From Parachlamydiaceae bacterium (GTDB lineage Bacteria > Chlamydiota > Chlamydiia > Chlamydiales > Parachlamydiaceae): a stretch of 32,394 nt of DNA. The stretch is taken from NCBI GenBank assembly GCA_030147755.1, contig JASBUW010000100.1, positions 1 to 32,394 on the forward strand, read 5' to 3'. Position 1 is the stretch's first letter. Each line of letters opens with the position of its first letter. Under the pieces are notes generated by a model. It worked only from the letters and a program-made list of their open reading frames with translations, was not told where the DNA came from and did not search any database. The position numbers and the translations under genes were made by a program. Positions 8,413 through 32,255 of this stretch are shown piece after piece.

Positions 8413-9354
8413 TTATGATTTTTCTTTTCCTGATAAAGCTATTTTAAGAAATTTTTCAGCTTTTTCTAACAGATCGTTGGATTGTTTTGCTCGTTTAACC
8501 AAGCGGCATAGAGTACTTGAATCACGATTCAAATATCGTGCTAGCTCTTGTAAATATAATCCAGGTATTTTCTGCACAGCAAAGGCTAATATAGATCGAA
8601 TATCTACTAATCTTTTCTCTCTGCTATCTGAAGAGACTTCATGAGTTTTAAAATGAAACTCGGTTTGAGCAGCTGCAATCAAATCTTCAAATTGAATTTC
8701 ATTACTAGCTAATGACCTCTTAAATTCACTGACTTCTTTAGCAAATTCCTCACTACCAAGAATGCCAATCTGAGTTGATTCACGTACGATACTTACATCA
8801 AGTTCTGCATCAATTATTTTTGATGTATGTTTAACAATCGCCTGACGAGCTTCAAGATCTGTTGTACCAAATTTCTTTAAAATACGTGTTTGAGTAAGCC
8901 AAGTAATCTCATCCAACGCTAAATAAGAACAATAACTACTCCAATAATAATGTTCAGGGCTTATTATCAAATTGGCGCGAACGGGGTTAAGATGGATGTA
9001 GCGAACCAAACGAATAAGATAATCACTATCTTCAATTAAAATAGATCTAAACCTATCCTGGAATATATGTCCCCGCAGTTTATGGCGGCGATTAAAATAT
9101 TGAGCATATCTTCCAGCAAAAGCATGAACACTGACAGAAAGTGGAGTTATAGTCGGCTCTAAAATGAAATGTACGTGATTGCTCATAAAACAAAATGCGT
9201 GAACAATCAATTGATGTTCTTCAACGACTTTTTGCAAAACCAAACAAAATCGTATTCTGTCCTTATCATCAAAAAAGATAGATCTCCCTGCGTTACCTCG
9301 AAGTATAACGTGGTGACACGAATAAAATTTTGTATAACGTTTTCGTCTGGGCAT
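8413..9354 (-). CDS. RAYT-type Y1 (HUH) transposase with DnaA-like C-terminal helix-turn-helix
   Basis: 313-residue single-strand DNA transposase of the REP-associated type. The N-terminal domain (about 1-150) has RGNAGRSIFFDDKDR, the HUH motif in SNHVHFIL (about 57-64), a Tyr-bearing helix FAGRYAQYFNRRH (about 84-96; candidate nucleophile), GHIFQDRF, and the RYIHLNPVRANL and WSSY segments. The C-terminal part (about 240-300) resembles the DnaA DNA-binding domain: ILAFAVQKIPGLYLQELAR, then YLNRDSSTLCRLVKR. The gene looks intact. No ribosome binding site precedes the ATG; instead a perfect hairpin ends two bases before it. The flanking inverted repeats are its likely substrate. Confidence 0.9.
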   Translation of the reverse strand: MPRRKRYTKFYSCHHVILRGNAGRSIFFDDKDRIRFCLVLQKVVEEHQLIVHAFCFMSNHVHFILEPTITPLSVSVHAFAGRYAQYFNRRHKLRGHIFQDRFRSILIEDSDYLIRLVRYIHLNPVRANLIISPEHYYWSSYCSYLALDEITWLTQTRILKKFGTTDLEARQAIVKHTSKIIDAELDVSIVRESTQIGILGSEEFAKEVSEFKRSLASNEIQFEDLIAAAQTEFHFKTHEVSSDSREKRLVDIRSILAFAVQKIPGLYLQELARYLNRDSSTLCRLVKRAKQSNDLLEKAEKFLKIALSGKEKS

Positions 9355-22870: not shown

Positions 22871-22880
22871 TTGCCATCTG

Positions 22881-23099
22881 AGGATTTAATTTAAATGACT
22901 TTATTCTGTCGCTACTCAGATAGGGATTAAAAGTTCAACACAAAGAGACAAAGACACTAAGACACTAAGAAGCAAAAAAAAGATTTACTTATCCTTATAT
23001 TTGTTAAAATCTTTGAGCCTTTGTGCCTTTGTCTCTTTGTGTTGAGTTTTTAATCCCTATCTGAGTAGCGACAGAATAAAATCGATTAAATTAAGTCCT
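22881..23099. repeat. Giant palindrome between rpsA and nusA
   Basis: A 219-base inverted repeat with arms of about 85-90 bases. The core 33 bases (22900-22932) pair perfectly with 23048-23080. Outside it the arms continue to both ends with four mismatches, and inside it through ACACAAAGAGACAAAG with a few changes. The inner half of each arm is made of short iterated words (ACAAAG, ACACTAAG). The loop is AT-rich. It fills most of the 356-base gap after the rpsA terminator, leaving about 70 bases for the nusA promoter. Confidence 0.93.
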
Positions 23100-23168
23100 A
23101 ACATTTTCTTATTAAAGAAAATAGTCATAAAGGTATGAGAAATATTATAGATATTAGAGGCATCAAGC

Positions 23169-27211: not shown

Positions 27212-27604
27212 ATGGCTGTAAAACGAACTGATCGATTAAATTCGCTTCTTAAAGAAGTCATTTCAGAAGTCATTAAACGTGACGTGCGCAACCCGCACGT
27301 CACGGAACTTGTGACTGTCACACGTGTGCAAATCACCAAAGACTTGCATTATGCCAAAGTCTTTATTAGCGTGATTGGAACAGAACAAGATAAAGAAGAA
27401 ACCATTCAAGCGCTTAACTCAGCTGCAGGCTTTATTGCCGTGCAATCTTCGCATAAAGTGGTCATGCGTTATTTTCCCGCTCTCACTTTTAAGTTAGACG
27501 ATAGTGTCGACAAACATATGCGTATTGAAGAATTGCTAGGCCAAATTAGCGAAGAACGAGAATCACGCGCACCTTTCGAAGAGAATGACGACACCTCCTC
27601 TTAA
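27212..27604 (+). CDS. rbfA: Ribosome-binding factor A
   Basis: Helps mature the 30S subunit and the 16S rRNA 5' end. About 130 residues with the KH-type fold pattern: RTDRLNSLLKEVISEVIKRD at the start, VTRVQITKDLHYAKVFISV in the middle, and MRYFPALTFKLDDSVDKHMR near the end. I chose the ATG at 27212 (MAVKRTDRL), five codon-independent bases after the infB stop; a longer frame from 27176 would overlap infB and add residues foreign to the family. The gene end overlaps truB by 20 bases, so translation is likely coupled. Confidence 0.95.
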   Translation: MAVKRTDRLNSLLKEVISEVIKRDVRNPHVTELVTVTRVQITKDLHYAKVFISVIGTEQDKEETIQALNSAAGFIAVQSSHKVVMRYFPALTFKLDDSVDKHMRIEELLGQISEERESRAPFEENDDTSS

Positions 27605-28286
27605 TCTTCCTGAAGGCATTTTACTCATCGACAAGGCTAAAGGACGTACCTCTTTTAGCCTCGTTCATACCTTACGCAAACGCTTAGGTGTAAAAAAAAT
27701 TGGGCATGCCGGCACCTTAGATCCTTTTGCAACAGGTGTGATGGTCATGCTGATTGGACGCAACTACACGCGTTTATCCGATCGTTTCCTCAGTTCAGAC
27801 AAAGAATATGTCGCCGAAGTTTTCTTAGGTATCACGACTGATACCTATGATTGTGAAGGGCAAACGATCGCTCAATCTCCGGTAATTCCCGCCCTTGAAC
27901 AGATTCAAGAAGCTTTAACCTATTTTCAAGGTGAAATCGAGCAAGTCCCCCCCATGTATTCTGCAAAAAAAATTCAGGGCAAGAAGTTATATGAATTAGC
28001 GCGTAAAGGACAAGAAATTGAGAGACAGCCTGTTAAAGTGAATTTACACACACAGTTGATAGATTATCACTATCCCTATCTTCATTTACGGGTGACATGC
28101 AGCAAAGGGACCTATATCCGTAGCCTAGCTTACGATTTAGGCCTTCATTTGGGATGCGGCGCACATTTAACGAATTTAAGACGCACGCGCAGTGGCGTTT
28201 TTAATATTGAAAATTGTATAAATGAAGAAGCCTTGCAATCTTCCTCATTTGATTTGCAAAGCAAGCTCATGAAATATGAAGGTTAA
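27585..28286 (+). CDS. truB: tRNA pseudouridine-55 synthase
   Basis: Makes pseudouridine 55 in the T-loop of tRNAs. Motifs: GILLIDKAKGRTSFSLVHTL, the catalytic GHAGTLDPFATGVM with the nucleophile Asp at residue 46, KEYVAEVFLGITTDTYDCEG, QVPPMYSAKKIQGKKLYELA and CSKGTYIRSLAYDLG. The protein has 233 residues, shorter than the 300 or so of E. coli TruB because the C-terminal PUA domain is missing; chlamydial TruB is similarly short. The start lies inside the rbfA end. The giant palindrome begins 14 bases after the stop and separates it from ribF. Confidence 0.95.
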   Translation: MTTPPLNLPEGILLIDKAKGRTSFSLVHTLRKRLGVKKIGHAGTLDPFATGVMVMLIGRNYTRLSDRFLSSDKEYVAEVFLGITTDTYDCEGQTIAQSPVIPALEQIQEALTYFQGEIEQVPPMYSAKKIQGKKLYELARKGQEIERQPVKVNLHTQLIDYHYPYLHLRVTCSKGTYIRSLAYDLGLHLGCGAHLTNLRRTRSGVFNIENCINEEALQSSSFDLQSKLMKYEG

Positions 28287-28299
28287 CAATATAAACGAC

Positions 28300-28590
28300 A
28301 AACGACCATAACGACAGAAACGACTTTAACGACAACGACAAACGACAATAACGACTTTAGTCCTTGTAATCGTTCACTGTGTGCATAAAAAGACTGTTTA
28401 CCCTTTGTGCGGTAGCACTCTAACTGCATTAGCCCAGAACGAGCGCTAAACGCGCTCGGTCTGGGCTAATGCAGTTAGAGTGCTACCGCACAAAGGGCAA
28501 ATAGTCTTTTTATGCACACACTGAACTTATACTAGTCTTTTTTGTCGTTTGTCGTTGTCGTTAAAGTCGTTTCTGTCGTTATGGTCGTTT
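28300..28590. repeat. Giant palindrome between truB and ribF
   Basis: A 291-base inverted repeat. Outer arms of 49 bases are perfect (28300-28348 against 28542-28590). Inner arms of 37 bases are perfect (28401-28437 against 28461-28497), extended outward by a near-perfect 22 bases (GTGTGCATAAAAAGACT on the left). The apex is a GC-rich hairpin, CGAGCGC with a five-base loop (28440-28458). The outer arm is built from iterated AACGAC words, about eight in each arm. Only the part at about 28349-28378 and its opposite are poorly matched. It fills nearly all of the 338-base gap. Confidence 0.96.
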
Positions 28591-28624
28591 GGTTCTTTAA
28601 ACTCCTACTCTATGCGAGCAATTC

Positions 28625-29539
28625 ATGCAACTATACGAACAGCTAGAACAACTGACAAATTCCTCTCACTCTCTTGTCCTCACTATTGGCAACTTTGATG
28701 GCATGCACCGTGGACATCGCGCTGTCCTGCAACGTGTGCGCGCCTTAACCGGTGCAGAAGGTAAGCAAATCGTCATCACTTTTCGCAACCATCCTTCTGA
28801 GGTATTAAGACCTACTCAACCTACCCGTTTTCTCTGCACTTTGCCCCATAAACTGGCTCTGCTTGAAGAAGCAGGCATTGATACGCTTTATCTCTTAACT
28901 TTTACGCGTTACTTGGCTCAACACAGCGCTGCCTCTTTCATTGAACGCGTGCGTCAATTTATTCCTTTTTCACATCTTGTGCTTGGCCATGATGCCACAC
29001 TGGGACGCGATCGCCAAGGAAATCGATCCATGATGCAAATGCTTGGTGAAGAATGGGGATTTCAGGTGCATTATCTAGAAGAATACCGCTTTGAAGGTCA
29101 GCCTGTTTCTAGCACCCGTATTCGCGAATCTCTTCAGAAAGGAGACTTAGAACTTGTCGAGACCTTACTAGATCGTCCCTATTCCATTTATGCGCCTGTG
29201 ATTCAAGGACAAGGCAAAGGCAAGCTGTTGGGATATCCCACAGCTAATTTAGATGTGGGTAATCTATGCCTGCCTCCATTTGGTGTCTACGCCGTTCGAG
29301 TGCGTAAAGGCCAAACCTGGCTACCCGGCATTGCCAACTTAGGCATTGCGCCTACAATCCGAGAAGAGGCGCCTCCTCTTTTAGAAGTGCATCTTCTCTC
29401 TTCAAAAGAAGATCTTTATGATAGCTCTTTAGAAGTCATTTTTAAGCACTTTATTCGGCCTGAGCAAAAATTTGAAAATGCAGAAGCCTTGCGTCAACAA
29501 ATCGCGCTAGATATCAAAACAGCTAAAGATTTGTTTTAG
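28625..29539 (+). CDS. ribF: Bifunctional riboflavin kinase / FMN adenylyltransferase
   Basis: Converts riboflavin to FMN and then FAD. The N-terminal adenylyltransferase domain has LTIGNFDGMHRGHRAVL at about 20-36, VITFRNHPSEVL, and LVLGHDATLGRDRQGN. SSTRIRESLQKGDLE marks the end of that domain. The C-terminal kinase domain has GKGKLLGYPTANLDV at about 196-210, PPFGVYAV, LPGIANLGIAPT and LEVHLL. Length 304 is normal and all motifs are complete. In Chlamydia ribF follows truB, as here, but the palindrome now lies between them, leaving only 34 bases before the ATG for a promoter. Whether ribF is read through or transcribed on its own is unclear. Confidence 0.96.
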   Translation: MQLYEQLEQLTNSSHSLVLTIGNFDGMHRGHRAVLQRVRALTGAEGKQIVITFRNHPSEVLRPTQPTRFLCTLPHKLALLEEAGIDTLYLLTFTRYLAQHSAASFIERVRQFIPFSHLVLGHDATLGRDRQGNRSMMQMLGEEWGFQVHYLEEYRFEGQPVSSTRIRESLQKGDLELVETLLDRPYSIYAPVIQGQGKGKLLGYPTANLDVGNLCLPPFGVYAVRVRKGQTWLPGIANLGIAPTIREEAPPLLEVHLLSSKEDLYDSSLEVIFKHFIRPEQKFENAEALRQQIALDIKTAKDLF

Positions 29540-29852: not shown

Positions 29853-32255
29853 TTACATGAACTCGACACCATTGCTTAAATCTGTTAAATTCTTTCGATC
29901 ATTTGGAGAGTACTTAGAATAATTTTTAATTAGTTCGTCTTTAATCATATTTCTGAATTTGTCTACGAGCATATTTTTAGTAGCTACAGAGACTTTCATG
30001 TTTCTTAACTCATCCTGTCGATGAACAAAATCATTGAAAGTGGCATCGCTAGGCATCGTGATCAAATCCTGTACCATTGTGTTACGTAGAGCGTCCACCT
30101 CCGTTGACGAATTGAAAGCTTCTAGTCGGTTAAGAATAAAGGCAGATATCTCATAGTTTCTAGCTTTAGATGGATTTGTCTTTTTGAAATCTTCATATAT
30201 CGATTTTAGAGAGGCTACATCTAATTGATTGATTTGATTTTTAAGTAATTCACTTATCTCACTCGTGCTAGGTAAAGCCAAAAGATCTAAAATCATTTTC
30301 TTGCGAAGAGTTTGAGCCGCTCCAGCAGAACCTAAGGCATCTAATCGACCAAGAATCATCTTATCTATTTCAAGCTGCCTGTCCGTAGAAGGATTTGATT
30401 TTTTGAAGGTGTCATAGATCGATGCAAGAGTTTCTGCATCTAATTGATTAATTTGCCCTTTCAATAATTCACTCGTCTCACTTGTCACTGGTAAAGAAAG
30501 CAGATCTAACACGATTTTCTGGCGAAGATTTGCCGATCCTGGTACAGAGCCTAAGACATTTAAGCGATCAATCATGAGCTTATCTATTTCAAGTCGTTTT
30601 TCCGGAGATAGATTCCTATTTTTGAAATCGTCATACATCGCGATTAGAGCGTTGATGCTTAATCGACTAATTTGACTATTAAGCAATGCTGTTGTCTCAG
30701 CGCTGGTAGGTAAAGCCAAAAGATCTAAAACAACTTTTCCACGCAGTGCATCTACTGCTGTTGAAACACCTAAAGCATCTAATCGATCGAGGATGAGCTT
30801 ATCTATTTCAAGTTTTTTACTTGAAGAATGACTCGCATTCTGAAATTCGTCATATAAAGCTGTAAGAGAATCTATTCCTAATTGATTGATTTGACTCTTC
30901 AGCAATTCATTTATCTCACTCGTGCTAGGTAAAGAAAGAAGATCTGAAGCAATTTTCTGACGCAATTTTTCTACTCCTGCTGCAGAGCCCAAAGTATCTA
31001 GTCGATTGATAAGAAATTTATCTATTTCAAGTCTTCTGTCTGAAGAAGGATTCGACTTCTTGAAATCGTCATATAGTGCTGTGAGAGAGTCTATCCCTAA
31101 TTTATCAATTTGATTCTTAATTAATTCATTTATCTCACTCGTACTAGGTAAAGAAAGAAGATCTGAAACAATTTTTTGGCGAAGTTGTTCTGCATTTGTT
31201 GAAGAGGAGCCTAAAGCATCTAATCGATTAAGCATGATTTTATCTATTTCTACTCTCTCTTCCGGAGATGGATTCGAATTGAGTAAATACTCGTAGAATT
31301 TTATCAATTCTTCTAATGTTAAATTATTAGATAAATTGATGCGGTCAGTGAGTATTTCCTTCTGTATTGATTGTAATTTCTTTATATATTCTAAGAGTGG
31401 TGATTTAAGTCCTATTAAATCTGCCAGATGCTCTGAGACTAGGTTTCTTAGTTTTTCTAAGGTTTCTATTTTAGTATCAAAATCTAGCGAGGTGCCTTTA
31501 ATATAGTCATAAGTAGATTTATACTGGTCGATAAGAAATTGATCATACTTATCAGAAAGTGAACTCTCGAAAAGCTCTGCTATAAAATCTATTTTTATAT
31601 TGACTAACTCTGCTTTCTGTTCATCCGAATAAGCACTTGAATTCAAAAACTCATCCATTTTTTTTATGAGATCTTCCAAAATTTCTGTTTCTACATACCC
31701 GCGTTTTGAAATAACTTCAGAAAGTTTTTTAACATACTCTATAGGTATAGAATCAGGTGCAAATAAGTCAGCCAGAGCCTGCCACTTAGCTTTATAATCA
31801 TCCAAACTTAGCGCGCCTTCTCCCATGGATTGTACAAGCTCGTATGCTTGAGTAGATACATCAACAGACATCGCAAAAGACATCCTTGTATCTGTATCCA
31901 AAACATTTAATAAGACTTTTCGGTCTACATCTGCATTCTCAATTGCATAGCTTAAAGACGCTTGTGCTTCAGGAGTTGTTAAAAAAGAATTTGCTTTCGC
32001 TTCACTCAACAGCTTTTTCACAAAAGCCGTCTTATCTTCTGCATTTAAATTAAGTTTTAAGGCATCTTTGATGAACTTAATGAGCTGATCCTCTGTAAAA
32101 GCACCTTTGGATGCCATAGCTGATTGAAAGTCTTTCTCTATTTCGTCCCTTATTTCCTCTACTGTTGCCTGTGGTGCAGCTTCCTCCTCATGCGTCTTGA
32201 CATTGTAAGCGTTGGCGTTATTTCCTGATACTCTCATATTTAAATCATCGGACAT
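29853..32255 (-). CDS. Large unknown protein with six 73-residue repeats
   Basis: 800 residues, no family recognised, no signal peptide or membrane segment. The first 330 residues are helical and acidic. From about residue 310 to 720 six tandem units of 73 residues follow. A unit reads SLTALYDDFKKSNPSSDRRL, EIDKFLINRLDTLGS, LRQKIASDLLSLPSTSEINE, LLKxQINxL. Periodicity at DNA level is about 219 bases (matching sites near 30281, 30500, 30720, 30940 and 31159). Each unit would make several helices, giving a long solenoid. AGAGGG lies seven bases before the ATG, and TATAAT (minus strand, 32307-32302) lies about 46 bases upstream. Size and repeats suggest an accessory or host-interaction protein; this is inference. 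Confidence 0.75.
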   Translation of the reverse strand: MSDDLNMRVSGNNANAYNVKTHEEEAAPQATVEEIRDEIEKDFQSAMASKGAFTEDQLIKFIKDALKLNLNAEDKTAFVKKLLSEAKANSFLTTPEAQASLSYAIENADVDRKVLLNVLDTDTRMSFAMSVDVSTQAYELVQSMGEGALSLDDYKAKWQALADLFAPDSIPIEYVKKLSEVISKRGYVETEILEDLIKKMDEFLNSSAYSDEQKAELVNIKIDFIAELFESSLSDKYDQFLIDQYKSTYDYIKGTSLDFDTKIETLEKLRNLVSEHLADLIGLKSPLLEYIKKLQSIQKEILTDRINLSNNLTLEELIKFYEYLLNSNPSPEERVEIDKIMLNRLDALGSSSTNAEQLRQKIVSDLLSLPSTSEINELIKNQIDKLGIDSLTALYDDFKKSNPSSDRRLEIDKFLINRLDTLGSAAGVEKLRQKIASDLLSLPSTSEINELLKSQINQLGIDSLTALYDEFQNASHSSSKKLEIDKLILDRLDALGVSTAVDALRGKVVLDLLALPTSAETTALLNSQISRLSINALIAMYDDFKNRNLSPEKRLEIDKLMIDRLNVLGSVPGSANLRQKIVLDLLSLPVTSETSELLKGQINQLDAETLASIYDTFKKSNPSTDRQLEIDKMILGRLDALGSAGAAQTLRKKMILDLLALPSTSEISELLKNQINQLDVASLKSIYEDFKKTNPSKARNYEISAFILNRLEAFNSSTEVDALRNTMVQDLITMPSDATFNDFVHRQDELRNMKVSVATKNMLVDKFRNMIKDELIKNYSKYSPNDRKNLTDLSNGVEFM

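Follow-up and report, generated by a model that had tools for sequence, protein, structure and literature searches.

The DNA examined here, a window of 32,394 nucleotides from a Parachlamydiaceae bacterium, raises the question of how a very long, near-perfect palindrome came to lie between two neighboring genes, truB and ribF. truB (tRNA pseudouridine-55 synthase; positions 27585–28286, plus strand; Pfam TruB_N, 178 bits), whose closest named counterpart is that of Neochlamydia sp. S13 (68%), has its stop codon 8 nt upstream of the hairpin. It is followed by ribF (FAD synthetase/riboflavin kinase; 28625–29539, plus strand). Both genes were confirmed by Pfam, in agreement with the location given by an earlier, sequence-only reading of this DNA. 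In 16 of 18 relatives, the gap between the two genes is −35 to +7 nt, i.e., they overlap or nearly touch; in the remaining two it measures 150 and 273 nt. In the window, the junction has opened to 338 nt. Farther downstream, on the minus strand (29853–32255), lies an 800-aa ORF with only weak, below-cut-off Pfam matches.

The palindrome is real and far beyond chance. It spans approximately 293 bp (28299–28591) and folds back almost completely, with an RNA minimum free energy of −227.3 kcal/mol compared with an average of −76.3 kcal/mol for shuffled sequences (z = −25); none of 100 shuffles reached the energy of the palindrome, and the z value for single-stranded DNA is −34. The outer inverted repeat (28299–28591) has 58-nt arms (28299–28356 and 28534–28591) with 97% identity, and the inner one (28363–28535) has 84-nt arms with 90% identity and a 5-nt loop. 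The perfect outer 49-bp and inner 37-bp arms described earlier are indeed present. The description of a 291-bp palindrome was thus correct in its coordinates and arms, but not in implying a single origin, since the inner core and the AACGAC arms match different sites genome-wide, indicating two separate repeat families, one nested within the other. The structure is a composite of an AACGAC hairpin, an 8-bp duplication, and a 167-bp inner element. The left arm of the hairpin (28294–28357, plus strand) has AACGAC words at a spacing of about 9 nt, and similar hairpins occur genome-wide; the right arm (GTCGTT; 28541–28598, plus strand) belongs to the same pre-existing iteron hairpin. The inner element (28366–28532) is bordered by TAGTCCTT (28358–28365) and TAGTCTTT (28533–28540), identical at seven of eight positions, so that the center of the hairpin is split as AACGACTTTAGTCCTT, 167 bp, TAGTCTTTTTTGTCGTT. 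Without the element and one duplication copy, the hairpin still folds, at −92 kcal/mol. These features are best explained if an older AACGAC hairpin at the truB–ribF junction received a non-autonomous IS66-family MITE in its loop region, the insertion duplicating 8 bp of target sequence; we regard this history as very probable.

The inner element is not confined to this locus. In the draft genome (3.46 Mb in 204 contigs, designated C), its core pattern gave 94 forward and 98 reverse half-sites and the reversed control pattern gave none, from which roughly 95 copies can be estimated. A search with parts of the palindrome, as the earlier reading had suggested, therefore yielded anything but a single occurrence. 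Contig breaks terminate 27 of the 53 half-sites examined, and many copy centers are therefore unseen; half-sites at such breaks help explain why a chlamydial-type genome was assembled into 204 pieces. For example, the contig ends of C187 and C156 both carry GTCGTTAA within an AACGAC arm and look like one split MITE insertion within a hairpin arm, if joined. Besides the window copy, six copies carry a perfect 8-bp duplication: C131 (AGGCGCAC), C94 (CTTGTGCC), C17 (TTTACTCG), C170:1859 and C170:14312 (TTAGAGAT and CTAATGAG), and C134 (GTTTTTTT), where the palindrome is a solo one of 25 bp. The duplication matches at 7/8 positions in both the window copy and C18, and at 9/9 in C27; a 7/8 match would fit a target duplication that has aged slightly. 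A clear duplication is absent from about 12 of 21 complete copies. The proposal of a mobile palindromic family is thus borne out by multiple copies with transposon-type ends, a number of which carry target duplications. Further iteron palindromes, built from other words, were observed flanking solo or full MITEs, at L165 (C134:5934–6130; GTGGACNNN) and L167 (C17:11410–11850; GGACCTNAT).

Two forms of the element can be distinguished. In the commoner long form (~290 bp), two inverted copies of a CCCAG...CTGGG hairpin flank a middle segment of ~100 nt, which contains another hairpin. The window copy is a short form, like those at C83, C85, and C53, with a single CCCAG...CTGGG hairpin and no middle segment; its ends are GTAATCGTTCACTG and GTATAAGTTCAGTG (the right end read inward), and its loop lies at 28447–28451. 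Comparison with long-form copies showed that its apex, the GC-rich hairpin CCCAGAACGAGCGCTAAACGCGCTCGGTCTGGG (28433–28466), corresponds to their right inner hairpin, and thus a deletion between direct repeats (CCCAGA), one at each inner hairpin, would be the simplest route from the ~290-bp form to the short one. The right half of the window MITE shares 98% identity with the C131 copy and 88% with its own left half, which indicates that the element spread as a unit. Palindromes of 34 bp consisting of the outer ends alone occur at C179 and C204; together with the 25-bp one at C134, these look like centrally deleted MITEs.

The relationship to IS66 comes from the ends of the element. The earlier statement that the palindrome matches no known repeat family holds for Rfam, whose covariance models gave no match above the gathering score in the window, but the inner part has IS66-type ends. 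A decayed IS66 remnant at C190:16087, with zf-IS66 and DDE_Tnp_IS66 domains (Pfam), starts with GTATAGGTTCACTGTGTGC, and its frameshifted transposase begins ~70 bp further on; its first 42 bp are identical to the right end of the window MITE at 34 positions, a match equaled by none of 5000 shuffles. In other genera of the family, IS66 elements have the ends GTAACAGTTCAGATACCC or GTAACCGTTCACGGGG, and intact elements of a relative have the ends GTAACAGTTCA; three of five intact copies in a relative (GTAACAGTTCAGATACCC type) show 8-bp duplications. MITE variants at C200 and C161 begin with GTAACCGTTCACTG, and the MITE ends GTAACCGTTCACTG and GTAATCGTTCACTG resemble the relatives' IS66 ends GTAACCGTTCACGGGG and GTAACAGTTCAGAT. 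ISDge4, a member of the IS66 family (ISBst12 group), has also been reported to have the ends GTAACTGCTCAGCA and GTGACTACTCAGCA and an 8-bp repeat (PMC12898284). Given the match to the remnant, the ends in relatives, the 8-bp duplications, and the example of ISDge4, the inner element is filed here as an IS66-type MITE, an assignment based on its ends, duplication length, dispersal, and small size. It carries no transposase gene, and no ORF of at least 80 aa is present between 28286 and 28625. Its movement may have been driven in trans by an IS66 transposase recognizing ends of the matching type. An intact cognate transposase was not found in the draft assembly, where the two IS66 matches comprise the decayed remnant and one element, at C31, which was rejected as an obvious parent because its ends (GTAAGCGCTCGCC) differ.

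The outer component belongs to an older repertoire. A search with the AACGAC arm revealed at least 35 separate hairpins in the genome, most of them without an insert (e.g., C2, C198, C36, C110, and C183). The center of many empty hairpins is AACGACTTTAGTCCTTTTTGTCGTT or a close variant, and those of C198 (AACGACTTTAGTCCTTTTTGTCG) and C2 (CTTAGTCTTTTTTGTCG) resemble the reconstructed target of the window; such solo hairpins are taken to represent the pre-insertion states of the window site. Five other genera of the family also have iteron hairpins of this design, built from AACGAC/AAGGAC words with a ~9-nt period. In the relatives G011 and G014 (L191, L197, and L193), which represent other genera, hairpins consisting of AAGGACNNN/AACGACNNN words show a ~9-nt period and belong to the same class. 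The window itself contains a second long palindrome of the iteron type (22876–23104; 95-nt arms, 86% identity), located between an S1-domain (rpsA-like) gene and nusA, with AACACAAAGAGACAAAGACACTAAG words in its arms and weaker relatives at C142, C19, C75, C149, and C63. Since the MITE was not found in any of the 233 other genomes of the order and iteron hairpins are present in five genera, the hairpin would have taken up the truB–ribF junction first, and the MITE would then have entered its loop region, duplicating 8 bp of the target. In a partial literature search, neither a published description of iteron hairpins with a 9-nt period located at the 3′ ends of genes nor a prior description in chlamydiae was found, and these family-wide hairpins may merit a study of their own.

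Whatever its origin, the palindrome could affect the two genes. If truB and ribF are still co-transcribed, a 293-nt duplex must alter their transcript, and coupling through the overlap seen in relatives is lost here. The duplex probably breaks translational coupling and may invite cleavage by RNase III; both putative effects, cleavage and the uncoupling of ribF, are plausible. A regulatory hairpin under selection, acting as a terminator, an RNase III site, or an mRNA stabilizer, would be consistent with the extreme RNA stability, and the location of iteron hairpins, which mostly abut gene 3′ ends (24 of 30 flanking sides, counting ORFs of 150 aa or more), fits a 3′-end use of the outer hairpin. 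However, the region 28200–28700 contains no terminator-like site (a GC-rich stem and a downstream T run), so the suggestion of termination by the palindrome was not supported. Moreover, most relatives have nothing similar at truB–ribF, the inner element is restricted to the species, and insertion accounts for the structure without selection. Selection for such a function is thus unlikely, and any effect on ribF would rather be a by-product of the MITE insertion than a selected switch.

A further question is whether palindromes attract one another. About eight MITE copies are located within AACGAC hairpins or at their edges, whereas about one would be expected from the extent of these hairpins (~6 kb) relative to an assumed 15% of intergenic space, suggesting some enrichment. 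Their positions vary among loop, arm, and edge, and only two of 21 copies (C202 and C75) have strongly palindromic, centered flanks; targeting of the loop or center was accordingly rejected as a general rule, and targeting of palindrome centers is possible. The inner hairpins of several MITE copies hold further palindromes. Among them, a GGGCGTGTC-ended palindrome with CCAG/CTGG duplications was observed inside the MITE at C189, C172, and C181. A palindromic element with the ends GGGCGTGTCTTAAAA and an apparent 4-bp CCAG/CTGG duplication is present at L173 (C189), L172 (C172), L179 (C181), and L259 (2257–2421); its nesting site within the MITE is always the same, in one or the other of the inner hairpins, and it resembles an IS5-type MITE. 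It could be imagined that hairpin-preferring elements and arm-to-arm copying drive a self-building stack, from the AACGAC hairpin through the IS66-type MITE to the GGGCGTGTC-ended palindrome and others, but this broader scenario seems rather improbable.

Alternatively, a single palindrome could have formed or grown where it now lies, through template switching or an inverted duplication, its symmetry being kept by arm-to-arm copying. Indeed, the arms of solo AACGAC hairpins differ by 3.3% within a hairpin versus 10.5% between copies, and the C30 hairpin carries an identical change in both arms, so that hairpin arms are kept alike through copying, selection, or recent formation. At C75, moreover, the flank of the copy is symmetric without any offset, and an 8-bp duplication is lacking. 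Yet, the inner and outer parts of the window palindrome are separately dispersed families, the 8-bp near-duplication lies exactly at their boundary, and the right half of the MITE resembles other copies more closely than it does the left half. Growth in place is therefore very improbable for the window copy, and its active maintenance, as once suggested, was not supported.

A fold-back join of repeat ends during assembly could be suspected because contig ends coincide with about half of the half-sites examined; however, the asymmetric arms (~10% inner mismatch), the 7/8 duplication at the boundary, the adjacency of truB and ribF in relatives, and the short-form copies at C83 and C85 argue against an artefact, which can be given little credence. 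Movement of a REP/REPIN-type element by a RAYT (Y1) transposase, which would fit dispersed extragenic palindromes and the six Y1_Tnp matches in the genome, has next to no likelihood in view of the 8-bp target duplications, which are not known as a feature of REPIN/RAYT systems, and the IS66-type ends. No AACGAC hairpin palindrome lies beside the five of six Y1_Tnp loci that were checked. One of the six matches is in the window (8413–9354, minus strand), where a protein of 313 aa contains a Y1_Tnp (IS200/RAYT-type) domain (48.6 bits).

The insertion of an IS66-type MITE into an iteron hairpin clearly illustrates how a MITE can split the junction between translation genes that, in most relatives, overlap, and its ordered steps, first the outer hairpin and then the MITE, could be used to study palindrome stability. 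The MITE itself represents a species-specific burst, an already known kind of event; it is the nested architecture that is unusual. A comparable burst of an IS-derived MITE is that of MITECca01 in the intracellular bacterium Cardinium, an element of ~240 bp with 169 mostly intergenic copies that is absent from other strains (PMC9769881). MITECca01, however, is derived from IS982, with the intact parent present (PMC9769881), whereas the MITE of the window has IS66-type ends, folds back almost completely, is often nested with other palindromes, and has no intact parent found. ISDge4 resembles it in its GTAACTGCTCAGCA-like ends and 8-bp direct repeat (PMC12898284), but ISDge4 is autonomous, with a single transposase gene, and the window MITE lacks such a gene and is palindromic throughout. 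Transposable elements inside extragenic palindromes are also known from REP sequences that serve as IS targets (PMC1525189); there, insertion is site-specific, whereas in the present genome only a minority of the MITE copies are found within hairpins, and their positions vary. Finally, the family resembles the REPIN/RAYT system in comprising many dispersed, palindromic, non-autonomous elements (PMC3116915), but differs from it in showing no linkage to RAYT genes at the five Y1 loci examined.
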